IMG/VR virus record: IMGVR_UViG_3300045921_000463
Coordinates: 1 to 64,000 of that record
DNA from: a virus
Strand: one strand, 5' to 3'
DNA: 64,000 nucleotides
Each line of letters begins with the position of its first letter. Positions within the stretch are counted from its first letter, which is position 1. Below the pieces are notes generated by a model. It was not told the DNA's origin and made no database searches. It saw nothing but the letters and a program-made list of their open reading frames with translations. Both the position numbers and the translations under genes were made by a program. Shown here one piece after another: positions 4,329 to 63,229 of this stretch.

Positions 4329-4357
4329 GTGCGCTCCTTTTTCGCGCTGTATAACCC

Positions 4358-4386
4358 GTTATAGCATAGGTACCAGATTCGGACAA
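4358..4386 (-). promoter_or_regulatory. Candidate sigma70-type promoter overlapping a TATAAC palindrome
   Basis: On the minus strand TTGTCC (4386-4381) and TATAAC (4363-4358) are separated by exactly 17 bases, and the -10 element is one half of the palindrome TATAACCCGTTATA at 4350-4363. It would drive the 4005-4328 gene with a leader of about 20 bases. The overlap would allow control by a palindrome-binding protein. Confidence 0.5.
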
Positions 4387-4404
4387 TATGATAATACTGT
4401 ACAG

Positions 4405-4848
4405 TCATATGTTCCCCAGATCGGTAATAACACCGCAAAGTTTTTTCTTGTCTGTAATTTCAACAAGAAGGATTCGGATAATCCTGTCCCTGTAGAAGTG
4501 CAGATAGCTTGATACCGCCCTCGCGCACGTGTCTGACTGCCGCCAGTAAAAAACCTGCACTTCGTTAACAGCTACTATAACTAGCGCCTTCTGGTTTTCG
4601 CAGAGTGTTTTCAGCGTATTGAAAACTTTGTCGAACATGGACGAATCGCAATCTGCCATATCAATTCTCGTGGAACTGTAAATCTTTTCCAAACATCTTG
4701 GAAGGTTGCGTCTCAAACTCACGGGCAACGCGATTTCTTCGGTTGCAGCTTCGATCTTGCTGATCAATCTGTAAAAACTAGGGCTCTGCTCTATGGCAAA
4801 ATCATGTCTGCGAGCATTGACAGACCTTGATTTTGGGCGTTCTTGCAT
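4405..4848 (-). CDS. Hypothetical protein (147 aa)
   Basis: Start placed at ATG 4848, which has AAAGGA about 7 bases upstream; a longer frame to 4920 has no such site. The product starts MQERPKSRSVNARRHDFA, with a basic N-terminal 20 residues and a helical remainder (LVIVAVNEVQVFYW near the middle). No recognised family. A strong promoter sits about 190 bases upstream (5037-5065), leaving a long untranslated leader. Confidence 0.65.
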   Translation of the reverse strand: MQERPKSRSVNARRHDFAIEQSPSFYRLISKIEAATEEIALPVSLRRNLPRCLEKIYSSTRIDMADCDSSMFDKVFNTLKTLCENQKALVIVAVNEVQVFYWRQSDTCARAVSSYLHFYRDRIIRILLVEITDKKKLCGVITDLGNI

Positions 4849-5036
4849 AACGGTTTCCTTTCGTGACGAGTTCGAGAAGAGCGTTTCTTTTGGCAGGCTT
4901 GCAGGCTCGATGAGTGACACGTAGAAAACTTTGAAGGGTATTGGATATGGTGAGATAGCCGGTATCGTTTTCGTCTTTGCAGGAAGGCTTTTATTGACGT
5001 TTGCAACAGTGCTGGTTTTTTATCTTACCCGAGACC

Positions 5037-6199: not shown

Positions 6200-6281
6200 T
6201 TTGCCCTCCGTATTTGGGTTACACAGTGGTTAGCAGCTTGTAGATGCCGCTAGTAGTGCTAGCTTAGCCGAAATAACATCG

Positions 6282-6566
6282 TTATAAAAGAAGATTTGCC
6301 AATACAATCACGGCAGTGACGATCCCTGCAACTACGAAAAAATAGAAAACATGCCATAGCACTCTCTGCGCTTGCTCGCCTATTTCAAAGCGATAAGTCT
6401 GTTGCCGCGCCTGCCCTTTCATTGCTTTTGCAATACGTTCGCGTTCGATCTGCCTGATGATACGAGTCACTTCCTGCTTGATGACTTGTGCGCGGATAGC
6501 CGTTAGTTCGGAAGCAGAGTTCTCCGGTGCAAAACTTCGATAGCTGTAGTCGTCTTTGTTGCTCAT
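6282..6566 (-). CDS. Small C-terminal membrane-anchored protein (94 aa)
   Basis: A polar, helical N-terminal 65 residues rich in Arg/Glu/Gln is followed by one hydrophobic helix at about residues 71-93 (VFYFFVVAGIVTAVIVLANLLL) that reaches the C-terminus. GAGGAGC lies upstream of ATG 6566, and the ATG overlaps the stop of the HerA-like gene as ATGA. It may anchor a complex with that ATPase, an inference from coupling only. Confidence 0.65.
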   Translation of the reverse strand: MSNKDDYSYRSFAPENSASELTAIRAQVIKQEVTRIIRQIERERIAKAMKGQARQQTYRFEIGEQAQRVLWHVFYFFVVAGIVTAVIVLANLLL

Positions 6567-7924: not shown

Positions 7925-7930
7925 GCTTGG

Positions 7931-8167: not shown

Positions 8168-8282
8168 TTGTAGGCTCCGTAGTTGATGGTTAGCGGCAAG
8201 GGCCGCAATGCGCACGATAGCGGCTATAACAGGTTATGGCAACGCAGGATAGTCAAGCCTGTCAGTCGTTCTCGATAAGGTT

Positions 8283-10159: not shown

Positions 10160-10204
10160 TGTGCTTGCTCCTCCGATTAGGGTGATTCGGTAACGTAGTT
10201 ATAG

Positions 10205-10867: not shown

Positions 10868-10938
10868 TGTAGGCTCCGTGGTTGCTATAACGAGTTATAG
10901 AATAGCGTGAGATTCAATCTCGGCGCAACCGAAATCCA

Positions 10939-12340: not shown

Positions 12341-12341
12341 G

Positions 12342-12699: not shown

Positions 12700-12779
12700 G
12701 GTGTAGTGCTCCCGTGCGCTATAACGAGTTATAGGTGCAGCATAGCGCATCGAGAACATTGTGGAAAGCGAAAAAACCA

Positions 12780-14738: not shown

Positions 14739-16124
14739 TCAGTACCACATGAAATCAAGATGTTTCCATAGCCAAGGCACTTGGTTCCACTTTACTTTTT
14801 CCCACGGAATATCGCAAGTCTTGAACTGATGAAATGCAAAATAGCGCCACGCAACGCCCATATATGCTCCGCACCATCTGAAATCTATGTGTTCTTGTTT
14901 TGCTCCGGGCAAGAGTTCCGTTTTACCCCACATACGCATCAAGTGCTTGCCACGGTGATTGTGATTATCGAGAGCATATAGTGGTATAGGGCGGACGATC
15001 CCTAGCGGCGGCGCATAGGAAGGCTTTGGCTGGCCGTAGAGCCTTGTTAGGCGGGGGCTTAGGGTGTTGCTTGCGTCCGTGTAGGCTTCGCCCGTTAGCG
15101 CATCGCATAGGGCATTTAGTTCATGGTATCCGAAGTCGCCGACCGTCTGATAGCGACGCAATACAAGCGAATGAAGCCTGTATGCATAGTCCTCGTCGAA
15201 AATCCAGTGCCGTTTTACGCTCGTAAACGCACCCTCGGCATTTAACACATCTGTAAGAATGTTGAAAATCTGCACTTTGAGGTGCAAATGCCCCTTCGGG
15301 TGGCTGGATTTGTAAAGACCTTTTAGGCCATACTGTACCAGCTTTCTATTGCCTGAACATATGCCCTCTACAAGAGCCGAAGCAAGCTTGTCATTTTCAG
15401 TGAAAGGTATGATGTCGCTATGGCGAGCGACTGCGTAGGTGTAATTCGTGGCAAGCTCCTTGTAGCCGCGCATCTCGTCGAGAAAAATGGCAAGTCTCGG
15501 CGCAAGCTCCCACTTTTTCGGCATCTTGCAGAAAAGACGAACAGTAGACATTACCTCATCGTAGGATACGGAACGTCCCTTTTCTGCAAGTCGCAGAAGG
15601 CGAAGATACATGTCAAGATCGCGCGCTTCCTCGAACAGGATATTGAGCATGTAGCGAATAACACCATGCAAGCCGCGATGCGCGGCTACACTCAATGCCC
15701 AATACTGTGCTTCCTTATGGTCGCCGCGCCTTAGCTCCTTGTGAAAGGCGGAGACGCTTTCCCATATGATATACCGCTCTCCAAGTAACCTGTTATAGAC
15801 TAGTTGCAGCGACGGGTCTTTTGAAGATGCAAGAATTGAGGATGCCGCGCGCATCTTGTGCGCACACCACGAATTTGAAATCCATTTGCCTGAGGACCAG
15901 CGCCAGGCTTTGCCCTGTCTGCAAGTGCATTCGCCGGTATCGAAATTAACATAATACCTTACGTCATTGTTGCTAAGCGACACAACCTCGTGAACGCCAG
16001 CAAGCGCATGATGCGGGGTTTTGTACTTGGACGGGTCGGGGTAGTTGTCTTGCATAGGATAGCGGCTCGCTGTTGTCCGTTTTGGTGTATGATAACGCAC
16101 CGAAAACAGCATAACAAGCTGCAT
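14739..16124 (-). CDS. SWIM zinc finger protein with RarA/MgsA-C-terminal-like region (461 aa)
   Basis: Residues about 58-92 contain a SWIM-type Cys-X-Cys...Cys-X-His arrangement (GECTCRQGK ... SWCAHKMR). Residues about 120-185 read ESVSAFHKELRRGDHKEAQYW and on, close to the start of the C-terminal helical domain of RarA/MgsA clamp-loader-related ATPases (typically SALHKSLRGSDPDAALYW). No Walker A or B motif is present, so the ATPase part of RarA is missing. This combination would suggest a DNA-binding replication or recombination accessory factor. The ATG at 16124 overlaps the upstream stop as TAATG; ATG 16055 is an alternative. The family calls are by motif reading only. Confidence 0.6.
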   Translation of the reverse strand: MQLVMLFSVRYHTPKRTTASRYPMQDNYPDPSKYKTPHHALAGVHEVVSLSNNDVRYYVNFDTGECTCRQGKAWRWSSGKWISNSWCAHKMRAASSILASSKDPSLQLVYNRLLGERYIIWESVSAFHKELRRGDHKEAQYWALSVAAHRGLHGVIRYMLNILFEEARDLDMYLRLLRLAEKGRSVSYDEVMSTVRLFCKMPKKWELAPRLAIFLDEMRGYKELATNYTYAVARHSDIIPFTENDKLASALVEGICSGNRKLVQYGLKGLYKSSHPKGHLHLKVQIFNILTDVLNAEGAFTSVKRHWIFDEDYAYRLHSLVLRRYQTVGDFGYHELNALCDALTGEAYTDASNTLSPRLTRLYGQPKPSYAPPLGIVRPIPLYALDNHNHRGKHLMRMWGKTELLPGAKQEHIDFRWCGAYMGVAWRYFAFHQFKTCDIPWEKVKWNQVPWLWKHLDFMWY

Positions 16125-16669
16125 TATCCTATTCTTCTTACTCCAAACTTGTCAAAATCCAATAGCGTTGTTTGCTCGTATTGCCTTCGGTAATAGTCTT
16201 CCAATACGCGGCAACCATGGTCTATCAGTTCAAGACACGAGGTATAATCCTTGCGAATAGTCATGATTCCATTCGCTTCAAGATGCCTCAAAACGCTGTC
16301 TATGACAACAAGCTGAATACGCGACCAGTAGTATGCCCTATGGTTTCTTGATGTAGCAACCTGAAACGGATCAGGCAGTATGAAACGCCGCCAATAGGTT
16401 TTGGTTTTGTGCGACAACCCGTAGTGCCGCGCTACCTCATTGAGGTTATAAAGTTCAACCATGTAGCCGCCATTAACGGGAGTTAGTTCGGTGTAGCGTT
16501 TCCAGTGCTTTGAGGGCTTGAAGTCGAGGCCGACACGAAAAACGGTAGTCGTGCTGCTTTCCTTTACCGGAAGCGCACGAAGGCTCTTGTGAGGACGCCT
16601 CAGCTTATTGGGTAACTCTGGATCGAACCACCAGAGTTTTCTATTAGGCATTATACGTTTTTTCAGCAT
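16124..16669 (-). CDS. Helix-turn-helix (MerR-like) DNA-binding protein (181 aa)
   Basis: Residues about 75-125 form a MerR-type winged-helix pattern: LNEVARHYGLSHKTKTYWRR, a loop with LPDPFQ, then HRAYYWSRIQLVVIDSVL, where the Tyr-Trp-Ser ... Ile-Gln segment resembles the wing and exit helix. The N-terminal 70 residues are basic. It sits 19 bases downstream of a terminator, so it may start a new unit. It is one of two MerR-like proteins here (the other at 21724) and a candidate to bind the dispersed palindrome, an inference only. Confidence 0.6.
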   Translation of the reverse strand: MLKKRIMPNRKLWWFDPELPNKLRRPHKSLRALPVKESSTTTVFRVGLDFKPSKHWKRYTELTPVNGGYMVELYNLNEVARHYGLSHKTKTYWRRFILPDPFQVATSRNHRAYYWSRIQLVVIDSVLRHLEANGIMTIRKDYTSCLELIDHGCRVLEDYYRRQYEQTTLLDFDKFGVRRIG

Positions 16670-16718: not shown

Positions 16719-16741
16719 TAACCGGTTATAGCAGAACCGTA

Positions 16742-17878
16742 TCAGGCCGCATCTTTTTCGGCTTTGACGATCTTTGCAGTAATCCGCTTCTGCTTGGTGG
16801 CGGAAGCCACGTGTTCTTCGGCCCACGCCATGATGATTCGAGCAAGGGCTTCTGCATCCGATTCGACGCCGTAGAGCTTCTTGGCTTCTGCAAGCGCCAA
16901 CTGCACAGCAGTTGCGTTTTCCTCGACCAGCTTGAAGTTGAGCGTGATCGTCTTGATCGCATTGCGACCGCCAGTGCGCTGCGCAACAGCACCGCTAGGA
17001 GTCCTGCCCGATTCGTCAACGTACTTGGTGACGAGAGAGGTCTTGAGTTCCTCGCGCGTCATGTTGCGGGCATCCTCAATGAGGTTTTCATAGTTGTCCT
17101 CGGTCACGTAACGCTGAATTTCACGGACCTTGGACCAGCCGATGTCGGACAGCTTGGACGGATCGAAGTTAGGGATCGCTGCAAACGTGGCGTACATCCG
17201 CGCAAGGTCGCCGCCTTTCGCTCCGCTGAAACCGAATTCGGCTTGGCAGAAGTCGTCCCACGCCGTTTCGCCTTCGTACTGGCCGCCATTCTCCTTGAGG
17301 TAGATGCCCTCGCGTTTGATGCGAGCCAGCAGACCACCGAGGTAGAAGAACGACTGCTCGATCTTGCCGAAGGTTGTCTCGGCAGCGGCGAGAAGATCGC
17401 CATTCGCCTGCTGGATGATGTCTTCCAGTTCGCCAACCGAAGGAATCGGCAGATAGTTGTCGTTCGCTTCTGCAAGCGCACGGCCCGTCAAAGCCTGCAC
17501 TTCCTGAACGGCAAGTTCCTGACCGTCGATGTTTTCATCGTCGGGATTTTCGAGGAACGCCACATAATCGGCAGCCCGGATGCACTCGTACTTCGGAGGC
17601 GAATCCTCGGTAGCCTCGTGCACTGCAACGATGACGAGAGTATCGCCTTTCTCGAAAATGCGATCCTCGTCCGGCGTTTCGTTGACATAGCCGGTAAACT
17701 TGACAAAGGTGTTTGCCGGAAGAATGACGATTTCCGAAACCTCTTTTGAAGTTTTTTCTTTCGCCGCAGTCGCTTTCTTGGCGCGCTGCTTGGTGGCGGT
17801 GTCGGAGGCAGCTTTTTCCTTGCTGCCAGCTTTACGAGTGGTGTCCTTGGGAATGACCTTGGGTTTGCGTGTTGCCAT
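16742..17878 (-). CDS. Basic-tailed DNA-binding-like protein (378 aa)
   Basis: The first 45 residues are Lys/Ala/Thr-rich (MATRKPKVIPKDTTRKAGSK and on), resembling histone H1-like tails. Residues about 170-270 (FFYLGGLLARIKREGIYLKE, then TAWDDFCQAEFGFSGAKGG) recall a helical module in plasmid and phage proteins of the DUF3102/partition-like type. The C-terminal third is helical and ends KIVKAEKDAA. AAAGGA precedes ATG 17878. It has its own promoter (17928-17955) and a terminator (16686-16718), a single-gene unit, suggesting an abundant protein. DNA binding or condensation is an inference. Confidence 0.6.
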   Translation of the reverse strand: MATRKPKVIPKDTTRKAGSKEKAASDTATKQRAKKATAAKEKTSKEVSEIVILPANTFVKFTGYVNETPDEDRIFEKGDTLVIVAVHEATEDSPPKYECIRAADYVAFLENPDDENIDGQELAVQEVQALTGRALAEANDNYLPIPSVGELEDIIQQANGDLLAAAETTFGKIEQSFFYLGGLLARIKREGIYLKENGGQYEGETAWDDFCQAEFGFSGAKGGDLARMYATFAAIPNFDPSKLSDIGWSKVREIQRYVTEDNYENLIEDARNMTREELKTSLVTKYVDESGRTPSGAVAQRTGGRNAIKTITLNFKLVEENATAVQLALAEAKKLYGVESDAEALARIIMAWAEEHVASATKQKRITAKIVKAEKDAA

Positions 17879-19760: not shown

Positions 19761-20923
19761 TCCAAATTCCAGCGGCGGCGGTAGGCGTCTACGATATTGC
19801 TAATAACGCGGTTATAGACGGTCTGGTTTTCGATTGCCCATTCGGTAAGCTGCCCTGAGCCTCTGAATTTGGTCGAAACGCCGTCAATGCTAAAAGCCGA
19901 TGGGGAGCCGTGAATTACTCCTACCTTGAGCCCCGAGCTTACAACTGCCTTTGCTTGATCTACCCAACCCTCTAGCATACCGCTGTGTGGTGCACGAACA
20001 AGTCTGAACATGCCCTCTCTCAAGGGACCGCCTGTCTTGTTTTTTGTAATCTTGATCATATGTTCGTTATACAAAACGATGTCGTCGCCAACATCGTCCT
20101 TTCCGAAATGCTCCTTGTTCTTGATTTCGAGTTGCTGCGACATGAAAAACTCGATTGCCTTGCCACCCGGCAATGTTCTTGGGTCTCCAAACACAAGGCC
20201 GATTTTCATTCGAAACTGATTCAAGCACATATGGTGCACAAGATGATCACGCTTTCGTTCAGAAAGCAGTGCGTTCTGTGCCTTTCGCACATATTTGCCG
20301 ATAAGCCTTGCCTGCAAGCCCATGAATTCCTGCATTGCGCTTTCTTCGATTTCCTTCATGGGAACGAGCGCCGCGATGGAATCCGTGACAACCATTGAAA
20401 CTTCCTTGGCGCGGATCACACCATCACATATGTCGATTGCGTGTTCGCCGGATTCTGGTTCTGCAATAACTATACGAGAAAGATCGCACCCGAGTTTGCG
20501 TGCCCATGCCTTATCGAAAGTTCCCTCGGCATCTATAATTACAACAGCACTGTCTGGGTATTTGCGTTGAACACTTGCAATGCACAGACATGCCGTGGTT
20601 GACTTACCGGCGGAACGCTCGCCATAGACCATTGAGGCACGGCCCATGCTGAATCCGCCACCCAAGGTCAGATCAAGCGCAAGCACGCCTGTTTCGAGAC
20701 GTGGTGCTGTGAATTTCTTTGAATTCGCAATATGGAACGCTTCGCCGTAATCACCGGAATCCGTTATCTTTCGAACAAGTATTGCAAGTTCGGAGTCTGG
20801 TTTCTGCAAAATGGTTTCCGTCGGTATTTCTCGTTTCTTTACACGAGAGCTTGACACGGCAGAGGGGGCATCGCTGCCCCCTCCTGAATTCGCGGACATT
20901 GTATTTCGCCGCTTTATTGCCAT
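19757..20923 (-). CDS. recA: RecA-like recombinase
   Basis: A RecA/UvsX-type strand-exchange ATPase. Walker A GERSAGKST is at residues 101-109. Walker B (VVIIDAEG, Asp131) follows at the usual distance, then MVVTDSIAALVP. Later, NQFRMKIGLVFGDPRTLPGG matches the region before the conserved C-terminal part of RecA. At 388 residues it is close to bacterial RecA (about 350), with an extra N-terminal Ser/Gly-rich tail. It would form filaments on ssDNA for recombination-dependent replication or repair. The start at 20923 sits in a palindrome copy joining it to the upstream stop. Confidence 0.9.
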   Translation of the reverse strand: MAIKRRNTMSANSGGGSDAPSAVSSSRVKKREIPTETILQKPDSELAILVRKITDSGDYGEAFHIANSKKFTAPRLETGVLALDLTLGGGFSMGRASMVYGERSAGKSTTACLCIASVQRKYPDSAVVIIDAEGTFDKAWARKLGCDLSRIVIAEPESGEHAIDICDGVIRAKEVSMVVTDSIAALVPMKEIEESAMQEFMGLQARLIGKYVRKAQNALLSERKRDHLVHHMCLNQFRMKIGLVFGDPRTLPGGKAIEFFMSQQLEIKNKEHFGKDDVGDDIVLYNEHMIKITKNKTGGPLREGMFRLVRAPHSGMLEGWVDQAKAVVSSGLKVGVIHGSPSAFSIDGVSTKFRGSGQLTEWAIENQTVYNRVISNIVDAYRRRWNLE

Positions 20924-20929
20924 AACAGG

Positions 20930-21727
20930 TTATTCCTCGCTGGCTTCTTCCTGAAATTTCAGAATGGCATTGATGTAGGCTGTTTTCTTTGCCTTAAGGT
21001 CAGCGCCCTTTTTCATGGTAACTTCGACTTCCCACGCTTCGGCAATTTCTTGAAGTTCGGAAAGTTTCATCCCCTTAAGTTCTTCCTCGGTGTAAGGCTC
21101 GTCTTGCTCGTCGTCGGACTCGTCGTCGGATTCCTCATCTTCGGATTCCTCATCTTCGGATTCCTCATCTTCGGATTCCTCGTCTTCGGATTCCTCATCT
21201 TCGGATTCCTCGTCTTCGGACTCGTCGTCTTCGAACAACGCCGCGAGAACAGCTTCTCGCAGTTCCTTGATGCCAAGTTTCGAGTCCACATCAAGATCGT
21301 ATTCCTTGATGAGTGCACGAAGTTCCGGCGCTTTCATTGCGGCAACGTCATCGTAGGTGAGTTCGTCCGACTCTTCGGATTCCTCGGAATCGTCCGATTC
21401 GTCGGCATCTTCGGCATGGGCCTTTGCCTTGGTTTCTTCCAGTTTCTTGCCAAAGTCGGTTTCGATTTCGGCTTTCCCCTCATCGGGATCGGAATAGGAA
21501 TCGAAAACAGAACCGGCAACCGAAGTGATGCGAGCCGTCAACCAATCGCTGATCGCAGCGTCGAGTTTGGTCTTGTATTCGTCTGCCTGATCAACAGGAA
21601 CGTTATGAAATTCCTGTCCGACAGACACAAAAACCTCGTCTCCGACTTCGGAACGCTGTTTTACCGACACGGTTTGCTTGATCACCGTGAAAACCGGCAC
21701 GGTAGCCTTGTCGTTCGTAATGGTCAT
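20930..21727 (-). CDS. Acidic protein with SEDEE repeats and two helix-extended-helix-like domains (265 aa)
   Basis: Start at ATG 21727 (ATGA overlap with the upstream stop). The N-terminal 110 residues are a beta-rich domain. Residues about 140-185 (LTYDDVAAMKAPELRALIKE) and 225-265 (YTEEELKGMKLSELQEIAEA) resemble HeH/LEM or SAP-like helical modules that often bind DNA. Between them six SEDEE units form a highly acidic linker. Location between RecA and a MerR-like regulator suggests a nucleic-acid or protein-interaction factor in recombination. The function call is tentative. Confidence 0.6.
   Translation of the reverse strand: MTITNDKATVPVFTVIKQTVSVKQRSEVGDEVFVSVGQEFHNVPVDQADEYKTKLDAAISDWLTARITSVAGSVFDSYSDPDEGKAEIETDFGKKLEETKAKAHAEDADESDDSEESEESDELTYDDVAAMKAPELRALIKEYDLDVDSKLGIKELREAVLAALFEDDESEDEESEDEESEDEESEDEESEDEESEDEESDDESDDEQDEPYTEEELKGMKLSELQEIAEAWEVEVTMKKGADLKAKKTAYINAILKFQEEASEE
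21127..21216. repeat. 15-bp tandem repeat encoding Ser-Glu-Asp-Glu-Glu, about 6 copies
   Basis: The plus-strand unit TTCGGATTCCTCATC repeats about six times with synonymous CATC/CGTC changes, encoding SEDEE. Unlike the perfect 13.3 kb repeat, the synonymous drift indicates that the array is older or selected at the protein level for acidity. Confidence 0.85.
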
Positions 21728-22350
21728 TTGCGCATCACCCTCACTGGTCTTTTGAATTTGGGGCGGTCGCCCTGCTTTCCTGATAGCCATTGTGCTGTAG
21801 TCTCCCATTGCTGACGAAGTTGACGGATTGTACTGTAAAGCTTTTCCTTCGTATCGAAGTGGTCTTTTCTGTAGTAGGCGAAACGTCGTTTGTGGTCGCC
21901 GATGATTGTAAGGATAGCCCGAACTTCTTCAAGATGATAGACAAGCAACTCTTTCTTGCTGATTCTTGTAAGAAGCACAGGTGACGGAATGATGGCGTCA
22001 TCGCCCGAAGTCTGTCGCCAGAACGTCTGCAAACTCACTTGCAGCAGTTCTGCAACCTTTGTCTTTGTAAAGCACGGAGCCTTGAATACCCGTCCTTTAT
22101 ATTCGACTTCCATGATTTCAGCCATGGTCGCAAAATAGCTAAGCGACCGCATCGGATTGACGATTTCGAAATCCTTTGCCTTTTTCTTGCGATAATAGGC
22201 TCGCTGGTTTTCTAGGTGTTTCTGGCGAAACTCTGGATCAGTCCGGTAGCGTTCCGTACTACGATTTACGCCAATGGATTTTGCCTTTTTTTCTGTATTC
22301 TTGGACAACCGCTTGATAGCTTTTTTCGGCGGTTTGCGAATATTACGCAT
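21724..22350 (-). CDS. MerR-like helix-turn-helix protein with basic N-terminus (208 aa)
   Basis: Start at ATG 22350 (AGGAGC at good distance), overlapping the helicase stop. The N-terminal 65 residues are strongly basic (MRNIRKPPKKAIKRLSKNTE and on). The middle (FTKTKVAELLQVSLQTFWRQ, then LLTRISKKELLVYHLEEVRA) fits a winged helix of the MerR type: HTH, wing, and exit helix. Likely a DNA-binding regulator or architectural factor. Paired in kind with the protein at 16124. Confidence 0.6.
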   Translation of the reverse strand: MRNIRKPPKKAIKRLSKNTEKKAKSIGVNRSTERYRTDPEFRQKHLENQRAYYRKKKAKDFEIVNPMRSLSYFATMAEIMEVEYKGRVFKAPCFTKTKVAELLQVSLQTFWRQTSGDDAIIPSPVLLTRISKKELLVYHLEEVRAILTIIGDHKRRFAYYRKDHFDTKEKLYSTIRQLRQQWETTAQWLSGKQGDRPKFKRPVRVMRK

Positions 22351-24061: not shown

Positions 24062-24080
24062 TGTAACGCTGTTATAGGGC

Positions 24081-26116: not shown

Positions 26117-26128
26117 CCATATAACGGG

Positions 26129-38756: not shown

Positions 38757-38788
38757 GTATTCTCCTTGCTTGTAACACGGTTATAGAC

Positions 38789-40706: not shown

Positions 40707-40777
40707 GAACTCTTTTCAACTATTTTTACACGCAATAACTGGTTATTGGCATCGGCACAGGCGACACGCACTGGCAA

Positions 40778-41854
40778 CTAGCGCAATATGTGAGGCAGCA
40801 TGTGACGTGCGACTGCCTCGATCATCGGAACAACAACCGAGTTGCCAAACTGCTTGTATGCCTGACTGTCGGAAACGACGATCCTGAACCGCGACTCTCC
40901 GGGTTTGTCGAAACCCATCAATCTGGCACATTCGCGCGGTGTGAGTCTGCGCGGGTTTGCTCCTTTGCCTCTGTTTACCAGAATGTCAGAGCCGTCCTTG
41001 TGGTACCTTGCCAACAAGGCACGTGCTACGCCGGAATTATCAACAAGGCTAAATCCGAAATTGCATCCACGAACACGCAGCTCAGCCGCACGATTTTTCA
41101 GGTATTGCCACAAACGATCACTCAGAATGTATTTCGGATTTACGCTGCCATCAGGCAGAGTGTATGGCAGTTCCGGTTCTTCCGTTCCGTCTTCTGGATG
41201 CAGGATTGTGTGTAGCTTTGGTCCATCCTGCGGCGATGGTATGTACAAATCGTCAAAACTAAACTCGCATCTTTCCCTGAAACCGACGATGATTATGCGC
41301 TCTCTGTTTTGAGGAACGTAACCGCGAGCATTGATTATGCAAGGCGACGGAACGTAATACCCAAGGTTTCTCAAGGTGTGCATAATGACGGCAAACGTAA
41401 ATCCGCCATCATGCTTTACAAGATTCTTGACGTTTTCCAGAAGGAATGCTTTTGGGCGACAATCTCTCAGTATACGCTCAATCTCAAAGAACAGGTTTCC
41501 CTGTTTTTCGCACGCAAAGCCGTGCGGCTGACCTAATGCCTTTCTGCTGCTTACACCTGCGATGCTGAACGGTTGACACGGAAAACCCGCAACAAGCACA
41601 TCGTGTTCTGGTATGTCCTTTGTTGAGACATCCCTGATGTCGCCTGCAATTTCATGCTTGTCCTGCGTAAAATTTGCTCTGTATGTCTGCTGCGCAAACT
41701 TGTTGTATTCAGACGTAAAGACACATTTTCCACCAACGGCTTCAAAACCAAGTCTGATACCGCCTATGCCCGCAAACAGATCAATGAATGTAAACGTTGA
41801 ACACTTCTTTGTCTCGAATCTGTTTCGATATGCAGCCTTGAGTCTTTTTGCCAT
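40778..41854 (-). CDS. DNA (cytosine-5) methyltransferase
   Basis: Motif I is FIDLFAGIGGIRLGFE, motif IV is AGFPCQPFS with the catalytic Cys, motif VI contains LLENVKN, motif VIII PQNRERIIIVGF, and motifs IX-X end RLTPRECARLMGF ... QFGNSVVVPMIEA. The middle part (about 185-300) is the target recognition domain. 362 residues from 41866 is a full-length enzyme; no restriction endonuclease gene lies next to it, so it is an orphan, probably protecting phage DNA from host restriction. Start taken at ATG 41854; ATG 41863 and TTG 41866 are also possible. Confidence 0.93.
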   Translation of the reverse strand: MAKRLKAAYRNRFETKKCSTFTFIDLFAGIGGIRLGFEAVGGKCVFTSEYNKFAQQTYRANFTQDKHEIAGDIRDVSTKDIPEHDVLVAGFPCQPFSIAGVSSRKALGQPHGFACEKQGNLFFEIERILRDCRPKAFLLENVKNLVKHDGGFTFAVIMHTLRNLGYYVPSPCIINARGYVPQNRERIIIVGFRERCEFSFDDLYIPSPQDGPKLHTILHPEDGTEEPELPYTLPDGSVNPKYILSDRLWQYLKNRAAELRVRGCNFGFSLVDNSGVARALLARYHKDGSDILVNRGKGANPRRLTPRECARLMGFDKPGESRFRIVVSDSQAYKQFGNSVVVPMIEAVARHMLPHILR

Positions 41855-42002
41855 AGCTGTCATCAACCTCGCTTGACTTCTACAACAGGAGTGAAGGCAC
41901 GCTGCGGAGCAACTCCTTGCCTATATGGCATAAAATGCACTACCTTAAAACGAGTTGCCTTGCAAGACATATGCTATAACCGGTTATTACTTCCCTCGCG
42001 GT

Positions 42003-47551: not shown

Positions 47552-50500
47552 TTACACCTTGAGCTCGTATTCGGCTACCAGGGGTTTGACAAGAACATTC
47601 GATAGCTGCCTGATTCGTACCCTCAGGGTAGAGTTTCTCGGCAGTACGATTCCAAAATCGGCTATCTGCTGACTACCTGTATACGTATAGGTTGTACTGT
47701 TGTTTACAGTAACTTCTCTGACAATATCGGTATTGTCCAATATTGTCAATCTGTAGGACTCAGAGGACTCGGAAAGCGGGATTTCCTCTAGGTTGAATGA
47801 ATCGGACTGCAAGGAACGATCCCTGCGAATCCAGTTTATAACGATGTTATTATCCGTTCTGTATGTTATCGGGTGTACCGAAATAACCGGAGCATACGGA
47901 GAAAGTCCCCTGCCATCCGGTGTATATTCGATTTCAGAAAACCGTTGGTCTGACAACGGTACACCCAGAGGGCCTACTGTTATACTGGTTTCGATGCCGA
48001 TGTCTTCGATGCCGTAAGGTAGTTCGTTTCCTTGTCTGCGCAGTAGCACAAGTATGCTATCGACAGGTTTTTCCTGCGAACTGTTCACATCGGTTCCGAA
48101 CAAACCCCTTATCAGTTTGCTGAAACGGTAGGTTCTTGTTCCTACAAGTTGTATGTTCTGTACAGAAATGATTTCGTATTCGTTATTCGGGTGTACTACC
48201 GCAAACAGATTTATGTTGTTCAGGAATTCGCTGTCGCTAACGCTGACCATCGTCTGTTCGCTCATTACGGCAGTAAATTCTGTCCCGTGATCTATGACAT
48301 GAGGCTGGCCCGGCGGTAACTCTGTCAACAGAACACCGAAAATGGACGGTGTTTCTATAGCCACGGACTCGCCTCCTTCCGTGATGACTACGGCGCCAAG
48401 CCCCCACTGCGGAGAGAACGACCTCACTTCTACGCTGGTTTGGCTCTGTTCGTTTCTATATACCGGCAAATCTAGAACCTGTGTAAAGAACCCGCTGATG
48501 CGTCTGTCTGTTTGCGTAGTATCCTTCGGGATTATATCGTCATAAAACGCTGCATCGAGAATTGCCGGATTGAACGACCTGCATTCGATTTTCAGCATGT
48601 CGAGAAAATCTGTACGAGCAACCGTATACCTGTAGACATTGCCGTTTTCGTTCACTACTTCTATGCTATCGCCGGGATGAACAACGCCATAGGACGGCGG
48701 AAGCGATCCTTGAAGTATGTTGCGGGAAGCCCATGTGTTGTAGTGATAGATGTGGGCCTGCCTGTAAAGACATGCAGGATATGCCGAAAACGGGAAGTTT
48801 TCGGCGTTTCTCGAATCAGAAACCGGAGACTCATAGTAGCTGTCAACCATGATGGTCTTGTAGCCGCCATCGGACCTCTGCGCCGACCATGACAGATATG
48901 CAGGCAATTCCTTGTCTGCTATTCTCTCTACCGACACGGATGGTTCTTCATCTCCTTCGTTCCAGAGAAAATGCTCGAACGGTATTCTGTGATCGGAGCC
49001 GTTACCCCTGTGTGAAAATTGCAGTATGCCTTCCTTTTCGTATCCGTCGAAAAGGAAAAATCTTGCAACAGGCTCTATACACTGTGTCGCAGACATTGCG
49101 GTGATTATGACGTAACCCTCTACCTGCCCGTATAGTTTGTAGGTATCTATCCTGTTTGGATCGACACCGGCTTCTTTGCACAATTCGTAAACAAGCCCAG
49201 CTACGTCGGCTGATCCTATACGTCCGGTAATCCAGTGCCCGAACTCCCAGTTTGCACGGTCATTCCACATGTCGTTTTCGACTGGAAACTCTGGATAAGG
49301 CCGAGCATCCCAAGTCCATATGGACGTGTTGTTCAGATCGAGCATCGGAAGGTTGGTAACAGTCGATAACGGGTTATTGGCGGAGTCCGACCAATAGTAA
49401 TGTAGCGCCTTTATGTATTGTCTTTGAATTATCGTATCGAACCACGATCTTGAGAAATAGGGAACCGCACTTTCCGAGGACTTCGGATCGAAAAACACGT
49501 TTGGCTGGTTCGTGCCTCGGTCGATGGCGGGGCATCCGGCTTCCGTAAACCAGAACTGTTTCGACTCCGGCACCCATGCCGTAGGTGCACCGCTTTCTAT
49601 CCCGTTCGGGCGATTGAAGTGTTGATTCGACCACCAGTTGCGCAAATCCTTGTAACGAAATACCCACGGCTTGTTGTACGCACCATCTGTTATTGGCGTT
49701 CTGATCTGCGCTTCGCGGTCGGCATTCGAAGCGTAGAACCAGTCATAGCCCTCACCACGTGCAATGTTGTTTTTCAGGTAATCTATGTCGTATATTGTCT
49801 TCCACCCCTCTTGCGCGTCGAGGTGATTGAACCCGTCGCGCCAGTCGGAGAGCGGCATGTAGTTGTCGATGCCGATAAAGTCGATGTTCGAGTCTGACCA
49901 GAGCGGGTCGAGGTGGAAGAACACATCCCCACTGCCATCTTGCGGCTGGTGGCCGAAGTATTCCGACCAGTCCGCAGCATAGCTTATCTTGGTGCTGGAC
50001 CCAAGAATGGCTCTGACATCGGCAGCAAGTTCTATAAATTTTTGCACTGCGGGGTAGTTGGATGCGTTAGAGCGGATTGTGGTAAGCCCGCGCATTTCTG
50101 AACCGATCAAAAAAGCATCCACACCTCCCGCTGCTGCACAGAGGTGTGCATAGTGCAAAATCATCCTGCGAAAACCCCACTCTGTCGGCGATCCGGTCCA
50201 CGACACGTTTGTGCCGGAGACAGAAAAATCTGTGATAGAGGCATTTCCAAAAAAACTGTTCACTTGCGCAGCGGCAGCGGCAGTTTTATCTACGCTTCCC
50301 GCATATCCACTTGCCGGGGAACAGGTAATCCTGCCCCGCCAAGGAAAAACGGATTGTCCCGTCTGCGAGGCGTTATCGCTGTAGGGATCGGGCAGAGTAT
50401 TGTCAGGCGGCACGTCCATCAGGATAAACGGGTAAAAGGTGACTTTCAGCCCGCGCGCCTTTATGGCTGCAATAGTCTCGACAATGGAGTTATCAGAAGG

Positions 50501-51538
50501 CGTGCCGCCATAATAAGGTCGATTATTCGAGTCTTGACTTACCAAGTAAGCAGAACTGCGCGTAACGCCGTTTACAGACCAAGACAACGGATCGGTTGCT
50601 ACGCCGAACGTTTCCACGCCGGGACGAATTGTGCAGTCACCCGCTCTAAGATCGGTACCAAACCAGGATACGACAATGGATACGGATTCCACATTCGGGC
50701 ACGACGCTACGAGATTCGACAACGACTGCTCGACATGTGCAACACCGTGGCTGGTCAAGTTTACAAGTTCTGCTGTGTCTTCCGAGTTGGTTATGATCTG
50801 TATATCGTTTGGCGGAAGCACATTAGATGTTATCGGCGTAGTGGCATAAACGAACTCGCCGGAAGAAGGTATCAGTGTTACGGACCTGATCATTGTTTCT
50901 GCGCTGTATTCGTTATCGACAGGTTTCATTACCTCAAACTGTATCTGCGGAATCCTGTTTCCGTAGTCGGTAAGCAGCAAGTCTTCGAACACCACATAGC
51001 ACAGCCCACGGTAGGCAGGTGTATTGTCTACCCCTTCTATGCCTTGTATGAGTGTGTCCGGCTGCTGGCCTTCCGTTCCTAGGTATACACGTGCATTGAA
51101 ATCGGCGATATTGGCCGGTTCGCCGTCAACCCACATTCTGCCCAGACCGCCGACCGGCCCCTCGCATATACCGATGGCAAAACTGGCATAGTAGTTGTAA
51201 GTAGTCTGTGTTTGTTTACGAACTCCCTTGCGACCTCCTACTTTTTGTGTGACGATTTCCTCGCGAAAATCCGTAGCCCATATGATGTTTCCGCCTATGC
51301 GTACCCTTCCGTAAACACGCGGTATCGGAACACCCTCTGTAGAAGTTGTGACAAGCAGATTGTCCAATCTTGGCCCGTATATGGGCTGAGGTCTCGGACC
51401 GAACAACCAACTATCGACATAGCCGCCGAGGAGCTTGCCAGCATAGGTGCCGATTGATGCGGCACTTATTCCAAGAATAGCACCTCCGATCTTGCTGCCT
51501 ACCAAACCACCTACTGCTGCAAACAGTAACGTTGCCAT
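47552..51538 (-). CDS. GTA-type host specificity / tail tip protein (GTA_TIM), 1328 aa
   Basis: The first 60 residues are Gly/Ala-rich and hydrophobic (FAAVGGLVGSKIGGAILGIS), then IPRVYGRVRIGGNIIWATDF begins a long fold. The central region (IDFIGIDNYMPLSDW, LRGLTTIRSN) has the signature of the GTA TIM-barrel domain (GH-like), and the later part resembles the phage tail hub domain (rcc01698-like). At 1328 residues it is similar in size to the GTA gp15 protein. It likely forms the tail tip and digests or binds the host surface. Confidence 0.9.
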   Translation of the reverse strand: MATLLFAAVGGLVGSKIGGAILGISAASIGTYAGKLLGGYVDSWLFGPRPQPIYGPRLDNLLVTTSTEGVPIPRVYGRVRIGGNIIWATDFREEIVTQKVGGRKGVRKQTQTTYNYYASFAIGICEGPVGGLGRMWVDGEPANIADFNARVYLGTEGQQPDTLIQGIEGVDNTPAYRGLCYVVFEDLLLTDYGNRIPQIQFEVMKPVDNEYSAETMIRSVTLIPSSGEFVYATTPITSNVLPPNDIQIITNSEDTAELVNLTSHGVAHVEQSLSNLVASCPNVESVSIVVSWFGTDLRAGDCTIRPGVETFGVATDPLSWSVNGVTRSSAYLVSQDSNNRPYYGGTPSDNSIVETIAAIKARGLKVTFYPFILMDVPPDNTLPDPYSDNASQTGQSVFPWRGRITCSPASGYAGSVDKTAAAAAQVNSFFGNASITDFSVSGTNVSWTGSPTEWGFRRMILHYAHLCAAAGGVDAFLIGSEMRGLTTIRSNASNYPAVQKFIELAADVRAILGSSTKISYAADWSEYFGHQPQDGSGDVFFHLDPLWSDSNIDFIGIDNYMPLSDWRDGFNHLDAQEGWKTIYDIDYLKNNIARGEGYDWFYASNADREAQIRTPITDGAYNKPWVFRYKDLRNWWSNQHFNRPNGIESGAPTAWVPESKQFWFTEAGCPAIDRGTNQPNVFFDPKSSESAVPYFSRSWFDTIIQRQYIKALHYYWSDSANNPLSTVTNLPMLDLNNTSIWTWDARPYPEFPVENDMWNDRANWEFGHWITGRIGSADVAGLVYELCKEAGVDPNRIDTYKLYGQVEGYVIITAMSATQCIEPVARFFLFDGYEKEGILQFSHRGNGSDHRIPFEHFLWNEGDEEPSVSVERIADKELPAYLSWSAQRSDGGYKTIMVDSYYESPVSDSRNAENFPFSAYPACLYRQAHIYHYNTWASRNILQGSLPPSYGVVHPGDSIEVVNENGNVYRYTVARTDFLDMLKIECRSFNPAILDAAFYDDIIPKDTTQTDRRISGFFTQVLDLPVYRNEQSQTSVEVRSFSPQWGLGAVVITEGGESVAIETPSIFGVLLTELPPGQPHVIDHGTEFTAVMSEQTMVSVSDSEFLNNINLFAVVHPNNEYEIISVQNIQLVGTRTYRFSKLIRGLFGTDVNSSQEKPVDSILVLLRRQGNELPYGIEDIGIETSITVGPLGVPLSDQRFSEIEYTPDGRGLSPYAPVISVHPITYRTDNNIVINWIRRDRSLQSDSFNLEEIPLSESSESYRLTILDNTDIVREVTVNNSTTYTYTGSQQIADFGIVLPRNSTLRVRIRQLSNVLVKPLVAEYELKV

Positions 51539-51539: not shown

Positions 51540-51998
51540 TCAGGTCAGCCCCTTTGGTTGTGCCGGAAAAGCTGCAACAGCCGCAATTCGCTTGATCCAG
51601 AAAGCAGAAAGTGCCTGATACACTACTCCCCTACCTTCGTAGGCATGTATGAACATGTCGTTATAACCGGTTATGCCGACATGTTTACAATCTGCGTTCG
51701 GAAACATCCTGAACACTATGACTCTGCCCGAGGTTCGATACGTCATCGGGTTGCACTCGACAAGGTACTTTCTGACGGAATTCAACAGCAAGTCGTCGCC
51801 ACGCCGTTCACCCCACAAGCGATTGTATGGCGGAACCGCCTGCGGCTCCTCCAAATCGTAAAGGTCACGCCAGATGCCGCGTAACAAACCAAGACAATCG
51901 CATCCGACACCTTTCAAGGATGCCTGATCGACATAGGGCGTTCCAAGCCAGGATTCGGCTACAGCCAACACAACATTATCGGGAATTGTGCCGAGCAT
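51540..51998 (-). CDS. NlpC/P60-type peptidase, GTA gp14-like
   Basis: Residues 30-37 read GVGCDCLG, placing the catalytic Cys35; His106 in ADCKHVGI completes the Cys-His pair. The 152-residue length is that of the tail-associated NlpC/P60 proteins. It probably cuts peptidoglycan peptides during DNA entry. It sits between the DUF2163 and tail-tip genes, as in GTAs. Confidence 0.88.
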   Translation of the reverse strand: MLGTIPDNVVLAVAESWLGTPYVDQASLKGVGCDCLGLLRGIWRDLYDLEEPQAVPPYNRLWGERRGDDLLLNSVRKYLVECNPMTYRTSGRVIVFRMFPNADCKHVGITGYNDMFIHAYEGRGVVYQALSAFWIKRIAAVAAFPAQPKGLT

Positions 51999-52876: not shown

Positions 52877-53493
52877 TTTATTTCCTCAAGCTTGATATTG
52901 CCAAACTCGAACAACTCAGGGATCGGTAAGGTTCTGGTCAGGGTATCGGTTACAAATCGTACTTCTACATGATAAGCAAAACCCGCAGTTATTTCTACTC
53001 CCGAAGCGGGGGCTGTGGCAAAGGTTATCACACCGCCTGATTCGGAATAACCGGAAAGCTGCACAACGTTGTTTAACGCCACCAAAAGCGAACCGGGAAC
53101 AATTCTACGAATTTTTCTGTTGTAGACAAAACCATCGTACTCGTAGGGTTTGACTATCTGAAACGACGTGGTTGTATTATTCCCCAGCCCTATCAGACAA
53201 TCGTTTGCGCTTATGGTATTTCGCATTGACCTGGTTGACTTGTAATCCGATACGTCGTTGAACAGGAAAGACGCATTGTTCTCGTGCACGTTTTCAAAGA
53301 AAGCTGTAACGGATTCGAAACGATGCAATTTGTCCAAGGAGTAGGAAATTTCATACACTCTCTTGGAGTGCGCTATTCTGGAAAGCCGCTCTTCGTGGCC
53401 TGCTATCGAGACCATTACCGATGTTTTTCTGCTTATGGTTATCTTGGGTTTTGCCGACAGTTCGAGAGGAAAGAGTGCAGCTATGAAAGTCAT
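52873..53493 (-). CDS. DUF2460-like tail protein (206 aa)
   Basis: Start at ATG 53493, overlapping the upstream stop as ATGA. The N-terminal MTFIAALFPLELSAKP, then TSVMVSIAGHEERLSRIAHS and FLFNDVSDYKS match DUF2460 (GTA gp12), a distal tail subunit. The C-terminal FAYHVEVRFVTDTLTRTLP also fits. It is one of two adjacent paralogues. Confidence 0.8.
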   Translation of the reverse strand: MTFIAALFPLELSAKPKITISRKTSVMVSIAGHEERLSRIAHSKRVYEISYSLDKLHRFESVTAFFENVHENNASFLFNDVSDYKSTRSMRNTISANDCLIGLGNNTTTSFQIVKPYEYDGFVYNRKIRRIVPGSLLVALNNVVQLSGYSESGGVITFATAPASGVEITAGFAYHVEVRFVTDTLTRTLPIPELFEFGNIKLEEIK

Positions 53494-54245
53494 GGTTCTA
53501 CCCACTCATACATGTGCCATTCTTGGAGAAACGTTAGCCACTGAGAGACTGTAGGCGTAGGTCCGTACTGCTCCATAAAGCTACGATAGATGGTAGATTC
53601 CGCGTGAACCATCGGCCTAAGAACCTCTTTTAGCTCTACGGAACCAGCAACCATGTACATGCCATTTTGAAGCACCAGCGACAAATTATCGCTGCCGAAG
53701 CGCGTCACGGTATGAAAGAGGAAACCACACGTAATAACCGCGTTATTGGCGGGCGGAGAATCGAAAAGCAGCACTCCAGAGTCCGTAATCTTGTATCCGC
53801 TGTTCAACGGAGTTCCGTCTACTGCAACCGTAAATGTATCAGGTACCAGCGCCTGTATCGGTCTTTTGTAGTGTTGCGGCCCTGTCCCGTAGGTTTTCGT
53901 TACCTGAAACATGTTGGATACGCCGTTTCCGATACCTATGGTCTGATCCAACGGGGTTATGTCTGTGCCTATTCCCTTTCCCGTAGAGGAATAGTCGGAC
54001 CAGTCGTGAAACCTGAAAGAATACAGTCTGCCCATACGGCACTCGAAAAAGCTTATCAGATTTCGATGAACTGCGGCATCCTTTATCGAGAATGACAAAT
54101 CGTAGTTGCGAAAGGTGTACTTGCTGACAAATGATACCTTTGCATGGCCGGAATCGGCTTCCTTGGTAACACGTCTGCGCACATGCTGTATGCGGGGTTC
54201 CAAGTCCGCACAGTCGATGAACAGCGTATCGTGAAAGGTTCCCAT
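53490..54245 (-). CDS. DUF2460-like tail protein, second copy (251 aa)
   Basis: The middle part SFRFHDWSDYSSTG and the later GFLFHTVTRFGSDNLSL parallel the sister gene (FLFNDVSDYKS, FAYHVEVRFVTDTLT), so the pair arose by duplication. The C-terminal 40 residues (SQWLTFLQEWHMYEWVEP) are an addition. The ATG overlaps the tape-measure stop as TAATG. Confidence 0.75.
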   Translation of the reverse strand: MGTFHDTLFIDCADLEPRIQHVRRRVTKEADSGHAKVSFVSKYTFRNYDLSFSIKDAAVHRNLISFFECRMGRLYSFRFHDWSDYSSTGKGIGTDITPLDQTIGIGNGVSNMFQVTKTYGTGPQHYKRPIQALVPDTFTVAVDGTPLNSGYKITDSGVLLFDSPPANNAVITCGFLFHTVTRFGSDNLSLVLQNGMYMVAGSVELKEVLRPMVHAESTIYRSFMEQYGPTPTVSQWLTFLQEWHMYEWVEP

Positions 54246-59728: not shown

Positions 59729-59749
59729 CGCTTGTAACCCGGTTATAAG

Positions 59750-61393: not shown

Positions 61394-61413
61394 GGTCGAT
61401 TCCTTTCAATGGG

Positions 61414-61920
61414 TCAGCCGGGATCGCCTGCACGTCTGTAAGGATCGTGTCTGGCGTGTTCGTATTCAACTACAAAGACAACTGTGCCACCGGGGTAGGC
61501 ATCCTTCGTGTTCAGGATGCGATGGGCGTTGCTGTCTTCTCTTATGTCGCGCAGATGAGGGTACTGATCGTGGTTTTCATGTAACGATAGAAAGGCAAAC
61601 TGTATCAAGCCCAGATAATACTTGAATACATCCAGTTCATCAACCCCCTTGGGAGCGTTAAAGCGAAAATGAACAAATACAGGTAGCTCCTTTATTGTGC
61701 AACCGCCGTACATTTCTATGTTGTTTTCCGTACCCTCGTCCAGTGAAGCAAAAGGTGCACCTCTGTTATCGAGGTCTTCAATATCTCCGACATAGACTTT
61801 TTGCCACACCGGAACCGGAGGGTTTCCGTCTGTCATGTTTTCCAGAGTTGATTTCAACCCGTCGATTATCTGTTGTCTTAAAGTTCGACCGCGTACTGAT
61901 GTTGTAATTGTGGTGGTCAT
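61414..61920 (-). CDS. Tail terminator-like protein (168 aa)
   Basis: GGAGG precedes ATG 61920, coupled by ATGA to the gene upstream. The N-terminal helix and strand order (TLRQQIIDGLKSTLENM, VWQKVYVGDIEDL) and the central ELPVFVHFRFNAP resemble tail terminator (gpU-like) proteins. Position between the tail completion and tail tube genes fits. Similarity is weak by eye. Confidence 0.65.
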   Translation of the reverse strand: MTTTITTSVRGRTLRQQIIDGLKSTLENMTDGNPPVPVWQKVYVGDIEDLDNRGAPFASLDEGTENNIEMYGGCTIKELPVFVHFRFNAPKGVDELDVFKYYLGLIQFAFLSLHENHDQYPHLRDIREDSNAHRILNTKDAYPGGTVVFVVEYEHARHDPYRRAGDPG

Positions 61921-62585
61921 GTGAAAGAACCTCCGCCTTTAACATAGGCATCATTCACAAGCGAAACGCCAAGATTGCTTATGACGATATTCCCCCATTC
62001 AGTTGCAAGCGAGGGTAACTGGTTGTTCCATGCGTTCTGCGCCCACCCCTTGTGCTTGCGAAGCTGCACCTGATCAAGCAGCAGATATAGTACGGAAACC
62101 TTGCCGGAAGCGGTTTTTCTTGCGATATACAACTGCCCGGTTCTTTTGGATTTGTATACGAAGCTGCCGAGCATCTTCCAACTGCGCGCACTAGGAAGTT
62201 TTGGTGTGCCGTCTGCCCGCAAACCATCGAACACAGGTACGGTAAGGTATTTCGAATTTACGGGGGTTATGGTTGAACCGCGATCTTGAGCTATGAGATA
62301 CAAAGGAGCCGTTATATGACCCCTGAGATAGCGAATTCCGGTGCCGAACGCTTGCGCCCTTTTCCTTACCATTGCATACCCCCTTCCAGTCCTTTTTGGA
62401 AAGGAGCCGTCCTGATATGCGTTGTCCATCGCTTCATTTAGCGCATTTCTCAACGCTTCTCGCATCTGTCGCGCAATTACAGTCTGCAACTTGCGAGTAA
62501 CAGGAGACCTCGAAAGGGCAGACATCAGACCTGACGCCTCGCGCCCCAGGTCAACGTCAAGAAGTCTGGCGCGGCGCGAAGCCAT
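61917..62585 (-). CDS. Tail completion protein, HK97 gp10-like (222 aa)
   Basis: The gene starts at ATG 62585 overlapping the connector stop as TGATG. Early helices (TRKLQTVIARQMREALRNAL then NEAMDNAY) and a beta-rich C-terminal half (QLYIARKTASGKVSVLYLLL) match gp10-like tail completion proteins, placed between connector and tail terminator genes. Joins tail to head. Confidence 0.65.
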   Translation of the reverse strand: MASRRARLLDVDLGREASGLMSALSRSPVTRKLQTVIARQMREALRNALNEAMDNAYQDGSFPKRTGRGYAMVRKRAQAFGTGIRYLRGHITAPLYLIAQDRGSTITPVNSKYLTVPVFDGLRADGTPKLPSARSWKMLGSFVYKSKRTGQLYIARKTASGKVSVLYLLLDQVQLRKHKGWAQNAWNNQLPSLATEWGNIVISNLGVSLVNDAYVKGGGSFT

Positions 62586-63229
62586 CAGAACCCCGTCAAC
62601 GAACGCACATGAGGAGAAATCAGGCCGTGAACTTCACGGATAAACCCCGATCCTAGTATATCGAACGTCTTTCCGCCTGACTTGTCCTGATGGCGAGAAA
62701 AACCGATGGTTTCGTTTTTGGCGCGCGAGAACATGAAAGCCGCCTGCATTGCGCAGGCTTCGCGTATATCCTGACTGGCTAAAAAAAGGTCTGGATCGTT
62801 AGGGTCGGTTTCAAACCCTGCGTAATATTCTATTTTCAGTGCACGCGGCATTTGCGGAGCGTTATGCAATAACAAGGTTATAGAGTGGCTGTGCTCATCG
62901 ACCGCGAAATCGGATGGTTCGAAAACCAGATTCGAATGTATGGCAGACAAAGGCTCGTAGGTAATGACGGGTCTTGGTGTCGAACGCAGCGGGCGTTCCC
63001 TTGTAAATATCTTTTGCAGGCGCCGCTCTGGTTGAATTTGCCAGTTTATATTGGAAATATCAACGAAATCCACATATTTTCCGTAGAGCCAATTCCTGCG
63101 GGTAAATGAAACTATCTTGGCCGTAACCTGCTCGATGAACCTGATGATTTCCTGATCGGAACCAGCATATTGCATTGCAACATTGGCATAGGTTTTCACG
63201 TCATCGACAGTGCAGAAACGCTTGGCCAT
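62585..63229 (-). CDS. Head-tail connector protein (gp6-like), 214 aa
   Basis: The early part MAKRFCTVDDVKTYANVAMQ followed by IIRFIEQVTAKIVSFTRRN is characteristic of gp6-type connectors, an N-terminal helical bundle. The rest is beta-rich with a helix (DIREACAMQAAFMFSRAK). AGAAG precedes ATG 63229, 10 bases downstream of the 63239 stop. Confidence 0.75.
   Translation of the reverse strand: MAKRFCTVDDVKTYANVAMQYAGSDQEIIRFIEQVTAKIVSFTRRNWLYGKYVDFVDISNINWQIQPERRLQKIFTRERPLRSTPRPVITYEPLSAIHSNLVFEPSDFAVDEHSHSITLLLHNAPQMPRALKIEYYAGFETDPNDPDLFLASQDIREACAMQAAFMFSRAKNETIGFSRHQDKSGGKTFDILGSGFIREVHGLISPHVRSLTGF

Follow-up and report, generated by a model that had tools for sequence, protein, structure and literature searches.

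The genome of this virus carries an evenly spaced array of a short palindrome, and the array very probably consists of binding sites for a dimeric, phage-encoded protein that has diverged together with its sites. The analyzed window of 64,000 nucleotides is part of a virus record of 80,456 bp (G000). In the window, TAACN2GTTAT occurred 15 times on the plus strand (0.29 expected when both strands were counted) and TAACN3GTTAT 10 times on the plus strand and once more on the minus strand only (0.20 expected); none of 100 shuffles reached the observed counts of either form. The shorter core TAACN2-3GTTA was present 27 times, compared to about 0.5 expected, and was extended by a further T in 25 cases on the plus strand and in 26 cases if either strand was accepted. 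The 24 exact matches reported in the initial annotation were therefore a slight undercount, while the claimed enrichment over random sequence (about 0.5 matches expected) was borne out by the shuffles. The complete G000 record contained 35 N2-3 sites, compared to a mean of 0.8 and a maximum of 3 in 30 second-order Markov sequences, and also a single site whose spacer is N1. A relative, the IMG/VR contig 3300001605_000015 (G001; 70% identity of the DNA polymerase), contained 55 sites. The sites of the window are given below without strand assignment (N2 and N3, spacers of two and three bases), together with coinciding sites in G001 and in the relatives G003, RcDurkin, and JP1.

4352 to 4361, N2, intergenic
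6274 to 6284, N3, intergenic
8227 to 8236, N2, intergenic
10191 to 10201, N3, intergenic
10888 to 10897, N2, perfect 7+7 palindrome (CTATAAC/GTTATAG)
12722 to 12731, N2, perfect 7+7 palindrome, position common to G001
15786 to 15795, N2, within gene 14739-16112, codon position common to G001
16719 to 16728, N2, intergenic, between 16742-17878 and 16124-16669
19804 to 19814, N3, 3' end of the recA-like gene, position kept in G001 and, with another spelling, in G003
20923 to 20932, N2, between 20930-21727 and the recA-like gene
24064 to 24074, N3, intergenic, upstream of the helicase gene, common to G001
26122 to 26131, N2, intergenic
26968 to 26978, N3, within gene 26767-27312
29834 to 29843, N2, within the DNA polymerase gene, same codon in G001
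32116 to 32125, N2, within the DnaB-like helicase gene
34179 to 34188, N2, within gene 33992-34522, common to G001
34753 to 34763, N3, intergenic
37165 to 37175, N3, GTTAC on each side
38773 to 38783, N3, upstream of gene 38112-38756, common to G001, JP1 site of another spelling nearby
40736 to 40745, N2, intergenic
41977 to 41986, N2, intergenic
47839 to 47849, N3, within gene 47552-51538
49367 to 49376, N2, within gene 47552-51538
51664 to 51673, N2, within gene 51540-51998
53735 to 53745, N3, within gene 53490-54245
59735 to 59745, N3, intergenic, common to G001, sites of another spelling at the same boundary in RcDurkin and JP1
62870 to 62880, N3, within gene 62585-63229, same codon in G001
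2796 to 2804, possible site with an N1 spacer

Almost all genes are encoded on one strand, on which the full site was C(T/A)ATAAC-N2/3-GTTAT(A/T)G. Strong conservation ended about 8 bases from the site center, and the sequence is that of a two-fold symmetric element of 16 to 17 bp. Only spacers of 2 (15 sites) and 3 (12 sites) were enriched; the other gaps between 0 and 8 yielded 0 or 1 site each. The two half-sites varied independently of each other, and their outer bases showed no covariation (35/18/18/10; Fisher p=1.0). As an inverted repeat, the site could also be imagined to act in RNA as a hairpin or terminator element. However, covariation is lacking, full pairing of the N2 form would leave no loop, and it is the sequence that is conserved and not the pairing, so that we rejected this reading as extremely unlikely.

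Selection on the sites was apparent within genes. In G000, 15 sites were coding, compared to 1.5 in synonymous-codon shuffles (maximum of 5 in 100 shuffles). The same excess over codon-aware shuffles, which had been proposed as a check, was seen in G001 (21 versus 3.1), RcDurkin (22 versus 0.7), G003 (16 versus 0.5), and JP1 (9 versus 0.12). About 40% of the sites are located inside genes, and 20 of the 35 sites of G000 were intergenic, even though noncoding DNA makes up about 10% of this genome (p=9e-12); an intergenic preference was found in five genomes, with p values from 4e-7 to 3e-15, where the gene calls for these statistics, and with them the flank and class assignments, come from our own simple caller. 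The shuffles, the Markov sequences, and the synonymous-codon tests contradict an origin by chance or codon usage, and conserved amino acids do not account for the array, since shared positions encode different residues; the likelihood of such an origin is vanishingly small, and it was rejected.

The near-regular intervals noted in the initial annotation proved to be real. The spacing of the G000 sites had a coefficient of variation (CV) of 0.53, compared to 0.96 for random placement and 1.13 under a null model that keeps the coding and intergenic classes, and the evenness survived this class-preserving null model in five genomes. Altogether, 14 of the 15 genomes tested were spaced more evenly than random (CV of 0.46 to 0.67 versus about 0.95), the exception being HJ05, for which no significant evenness was found (CV of 0.76). 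The region from 42 to 47.8 kb of the window, which had been described as GC rich and devoid of sites, is indeed site free for 5.86 kb and has a GC content of 0.58 versus 0.51, reaching 68% per kb. Its interpretation as a later insert is, however, not supported by the missing sites, because the largest site-free gap (6.00 kb) covers the tape-measure gene region, where the GC content is normal (0.516).

Relatives were collected by means of the DNA polymerase and comprised the IMG/VR contigs G001, G002, G003, and G005 as well as cultured phages. Siphophages of 80 to 110 kb that infect Rhodobacter, Agrobacterium, Rhizobium, Pseudomonas, Stenotrophomonas, Aeromonas, and Vibrio displayed the same architecture with other spellings, and a search for enriched gapped palindromes revealed that almost all phages of the group have a single dominant spelling. 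The recommended count across the complete genome and its relatives thus gave 35 sites in G000 and 16 to 55 per relative genome, with the genomes of TM16, RcZahn, L338C, and VHS1 analyzed minus their last 1 to 10 kb. RcDurkin, RcTiptonus, G002, G003, and G022 to G025 use CAATCGATTG, in extended form TTGCAATCGATTGCAA, and JP1 uses TTGCAAACGTTTGCAA. L338C, HJ05, and DLP3 (31 sites) carry a TGCAAYN2RTTGCA-type spelling, SM1 and TM16 carry GTGCAAN4TTGCAC, and RcZahn and KarBoss have looser TGCAN6TGCA forms. A degenerate form was found in VHS1 (20 matches at up to 2 mismatches, compared to 0 to 1 in three random sequences), and G005 showed a weak form only, confined mainly to part of its genome. No palindrome was found in the Arthrobacter phage KellEzio, which lies outside the group. 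Across the spellings, the half-sites align as Y-T-R-Y-A-A in a single 16-bp frame, in which the N2 form of the window reads CTATAA-N4-TTATAG and the N3 form is one base longer. A one-base variation of the spacer was also seen in L338C, with 43 copies of TGCAAN4TTGCA and 12 of TGCAAN3TTGCA. JP1 contains a second palindrome, GTATATAC, whose 28 copies are not spread but clustered, mostly at 83 to 87 kb. A search for phages nearly identical to G000 gave no match, and a terminase search of bacterial genomes returned no relative and hence no direct prophage for this lineage. The corresponding search of plasmids yielded one relative (30% identity) on the 109-kb Rhizobium bangladeshense plasmid NZ_CP071625, which is possibly a phage-plasmid of this wider group.

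The positions of the sites were compared by the use of tblastn-derived maps, with 300 rotations as the null model. Thirteen of the 24 alignable G000 sites coincided with sites of G001, usually at most 1 base apart (null mean, 1.1), so that a lack of conserved positions in relatives, which would have spoken against the array, was not observed. A contig 82% identical to G000 retained both of the sites in its alignable stretch. Comparison with RcDurkin, G003, and JP1, all of which use a different spelling, still gave 3 to 5 coinciding sites (null, 0.2 to 0.9); for G000 sites, the number was 3 to 4 (null, 0.2 to 0.7; P <=0.003). These small numbers are to be read with care, as some of the matches by flank allow offsets of up to 90 bases. 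Where the terminase gene begins, G000 and G001 encode A-I-T-R-L-Q by TATAACNCGGTTACA, whereas RcDurkin encodes L-Q-S-I-A by TGCAATCGATTGCA; at the 3' end of recA, G003 has TACAATCGATTGCA in the place of TATAACCGCGTTAT in G000. The ancestral (old) spelling had no match in G000 and one in G001. Positions common to lineages that differ in spelling and in encoded residues indicate that the motif changed in concert, and a co-diverging phage protein is most likely bound there. As judged from these genomes, the spelling is replaced in concert between lineages, and the array is kept by selection at even intervals. No other observation argues as strongly for a putative trans-acting reader as this joint respelling of sites that stay in place. 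The dimeric protein at dispersed sites that had been suggested in the initial annotation is thus strongly supported by symmetric, independent half-sites, by conserved positions, and by a single spelling per lineage.

The reader could in principle be supplied by the host, which is possible for any single phage. However, RcDurkin and RcZahn share one host, R. capsulatus YW1, and differ in spelling, while related spellings span alpha- and gammaproteobacterial hosts, which makes a host-encoded protein improbable. The C5-methyltransferase encoded in the window at 40778-41854 raises the alternative that the palindrome is the target of this enzyme or of a restriction system. Among the compared relatives, a tblastn match to the enzyme was obtained in G005 only and none in G001 with its 55 sites, and neither variable spacers nor even spacing would be expected of such a target. 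We therefore rejected this scarcely credible alternative.

The sites were also polar relative to transcription. The base preceding the core was A in 88 of 90 cases on the upstream side and, read as the complement, in 62 of 90 cases on the downstream side (p=1e-7). The polarity persisted when intergenic sites alone were considered (p=3e-6; p=4e-3 for RcF-type sites), so that avoidance of stop codons does not account for it. Polarity along transcription and the resemblance of the upstream half to a -10 hexamer (in gene-strand orientation, TATAAC or TACAAT) would fit promoter elements, but no conserved bases were found upstream of the sites, -35 and extended -10 sequences were not enriched on the sense side over the antisense side, and the sites are intragenic in about 40% of cases. 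A promoter function was accordingly considered very improbable and was rejected.

Iterated profile searches over all open reading frames were used to find candidate reader proteins. The best candidates are the first two of the following.

16742 to 17878, minus strand, candidate reader of 378 amino acids with a helix-turn-helix (HTH) at about residues 206 to 233 and a disordered basic N-terminal tail, orthologues in 14 of 14 phages
21724 to 22350, minus strand, candidate reader of 208 amino acids, MerR-like winged HTH protein encoded directly after the helicase gene, orthologues in 12 of 14 phages
16124 to 16669, minus strand, MerR-like paralogue of 21724-22350

The 16742-17878 family was present in all site-bearing phages examined, including VHS1 and G005, and was not found in KellEzio. 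The structure model displayed an SH3-like N-terminal domain, the HTH, and a disordered Lys/Ala-rich N terminus. The members from KarBoss and VHS1 matched borfam_49 (NF033725), an NCBIfam family of Borrelia replication/partitioning proteins, over the HTH core (2.8e-4 and 5.6e-4), a weak match of 20 to 21 bits that lies below the curated cutoff of 60. Among independent IMG/VR contigs found with recA, every contig with TGCAA-type palindromes also encoded this family, and the three contigs lacking the family had no such palindromes. Three further contigs encoded both candidate families without a clear TGCAA palindrome, so that presence alone is insufficient for this spelling. Contig L205, which encodes both families, contains a different palindrome (TGTCT-N8-AGACA, AGACAA-N3-TTGTCT), which might represent yet another spelling.

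TM16 and RcZahn were the two phages in which no member of the MerR-like family of 21724-22350 was found. The profile of this family matched MerR DNA-binding domains (2jml, 8e-6; CarH, 1.2e-3; BldC, 1.3e-3; RacA, 0.04), and the nearest solved structures by profile were CarA/CarH, BldC, and RacA. Pfam MerR_1 was matched by 5 of 17 members (up to 3e-6), the member of the window remaining below the Pfam cutoff. The structure model (pLDDT of 73) gave weak fold matches only, and fold searches with the candidate readers returned no decisive relative. The recognition helix reads SLQTFWRQ or SPQTLWRQ in the TATAAC lineage versus YQxxWRW in the RcF lineage. These differences track the motif groups and are suggestive of palindrome binding by this candidate, but the match does not constitute independent evidence, because the motif groups are also clades. 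Both candidates are encoded in the replication/recombination block. Of the four proteins proposed in the initial annotation, 16124 and 21724 are genuinely MerR-like and 16742 occurs in all 14 site-bearing phages examined; the winged-helix protein 33992 is an unlikely reader, since it is present in G000 and G001 only. A ParB_N-domain protein (record positions 72947-73786, minus strand) was considered a less likely reader by its presence and absence. Its gene adjoins that of the large terminase in most phages and also in KellEzio, which has no palindrome; orthologues were full length in most phages and weaker, fragmentary, or differently sized in SM1, HJ05, and L338C.

How the sites would work is less certain. 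With somewhat less than even confidence, we propose that they act like stoperators and block transcription through the putative phage reader, a reading that is slightly favored over a nucleoid or partition scaffold. The reader would occupy all sites across the genome and would block or tune RNA polymerase as it crosses the co-directional gene blocks, so that the genome would probably be held quiet in a phage-plasmid-like state; folding of the DNA might be a second effect of the bound protein. The polarity of the sites speaks for transcription blocking, as stoperators are oriented too. Of the temperate phages DLP3 and DLP5, the former forms lysogens and the latter was recovered as a phagemid (PMC7326821). 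Against this role, the candidate readers are encoded outside a typical immunity region, and the MerR-like candidate was not found in two site-bearing phages. RcF phages, which have been described as virulent (PMC8601537), retain 40 and 38 sites, and this also counts against stoperators.

Alternatively, the protein may bind every 2 to 3 kb to form a genome-wide nucleoprotein scaffold that folds, condenses, or segregates the phage DNA during lytic growth or in a phage-plasmid; we regard this as possible but rather doubtful. Such a scaffold or partition role would better explain the even spacing and the persistence of arrays in phages described as virulent as well as in temperate ones than stoperators do, but not the polarity, which is unexpected for a pure scaffold. 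The Lys/Ala-rich tail and HTH of 16742, its remote match to the Borrelia partition family, and the profile matches of 21724 to the DNA-binding domains of BldC and RacA are consistent with it; the low score of the Borrelia match and the lack of a partner ATPase tied to 16742 are not. In a broader form, which we hold with similar reserve, this proteobacterial lineage of 80- to 110-kb phages might encode a genome-spanning organizer that is loaded at evenly spaced palindromes and folds and segregates, or silences, the DNA, its recognition code having been replaced genome-wide several times.

Two other genes of the window deserve mention. The family A DNA polymerase (27257-30985, minus strand, 1,242 amino acids) matched Pfam Intein_splicing (8.6e-5) at about residues 687 to 944; polymerase motifs lie on either side of the predicted intein, intein-less orthologues are shorter, and the gene appears to carry an intein. 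The AAA+ ATPase (38789-40516, minus strand) has a long, unassigned N-terminal part and is conserved in all phages of the group, with two copies in DLP3.

In a limited search of the open-access literature (TTGCAA palindromes, RcDurkin, L338C, Delepquintavirus, and stoperators), no published description of these arrays was found. Dozens of sites appear to have been respelled together while some positions stayed fixed, and these phages therefore offer a natural series in which to follow how a DNA-binding protein and its sites throughout a genome change their specificity jointly. Should the conserved, uncharacterized 16742-17878 family prove to be the reader, it would gain a function, and it could become clear by what means large phages that lack a known integrase keep their genomes silent or organized.

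Several known systems resemble the arrays in part. RacA-ram, Noc-NBS, and MatP-matS are short dispersed palindromes read by a dimeric protein, and RacA, Noc, MatP, and ParZ are the chromosome-organizing comparators of a scaffold. The DNA-binding domain of RacA is MerR-like, as is candidate 21724; however, the three palindrome systems are bacterial and regional or sparse, whereas the array described here covers a whole phage genome at 2 to 5 kb. The C1 operators of P1 are dispersed operators of a phage-plasmid repressor, but they are fewer and asymmetric, and no C1-like protein was identified in the phages examined here. In a control with an assumed Bxb1 stoperator consensus, the Bxb1 sites were not evenly spaced overall (CV of 0.88 with one mismatch allowed), unlike the arrays described here, and this counts against a stoperator role. 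ParZ is presumably a member of borfam_49, the profile that is weakly matched by the 16742 orthologues over their HTH core. It is the centromere-binding protein of Borrelia burgdorferi, has been proposed to be phage derived, and has a single binding region close to the gene that encodes it (PMC9712426); the arrays described here are genome-wide. The stoperators of Cluster A phages (L5, Bxb1, and Trixie) are the most similar: they form tens of genome-wide sites within and between genes, are oriented with transcription, and have a consensus that varies from lineage to lineage along with the repressor (PMC6550527). Related phages that differ in consensus keep syntenic sites, as was found here. Cluster A stoperators are, however, asymmetric, while the sites reported here are palindromic and only weakly polar, in the base next to the core, and they differ further in their even spacing, their one-base-variable spacer, their occurrence in proteobacterial phages of 80 to 110 kb, and their candidate reader.
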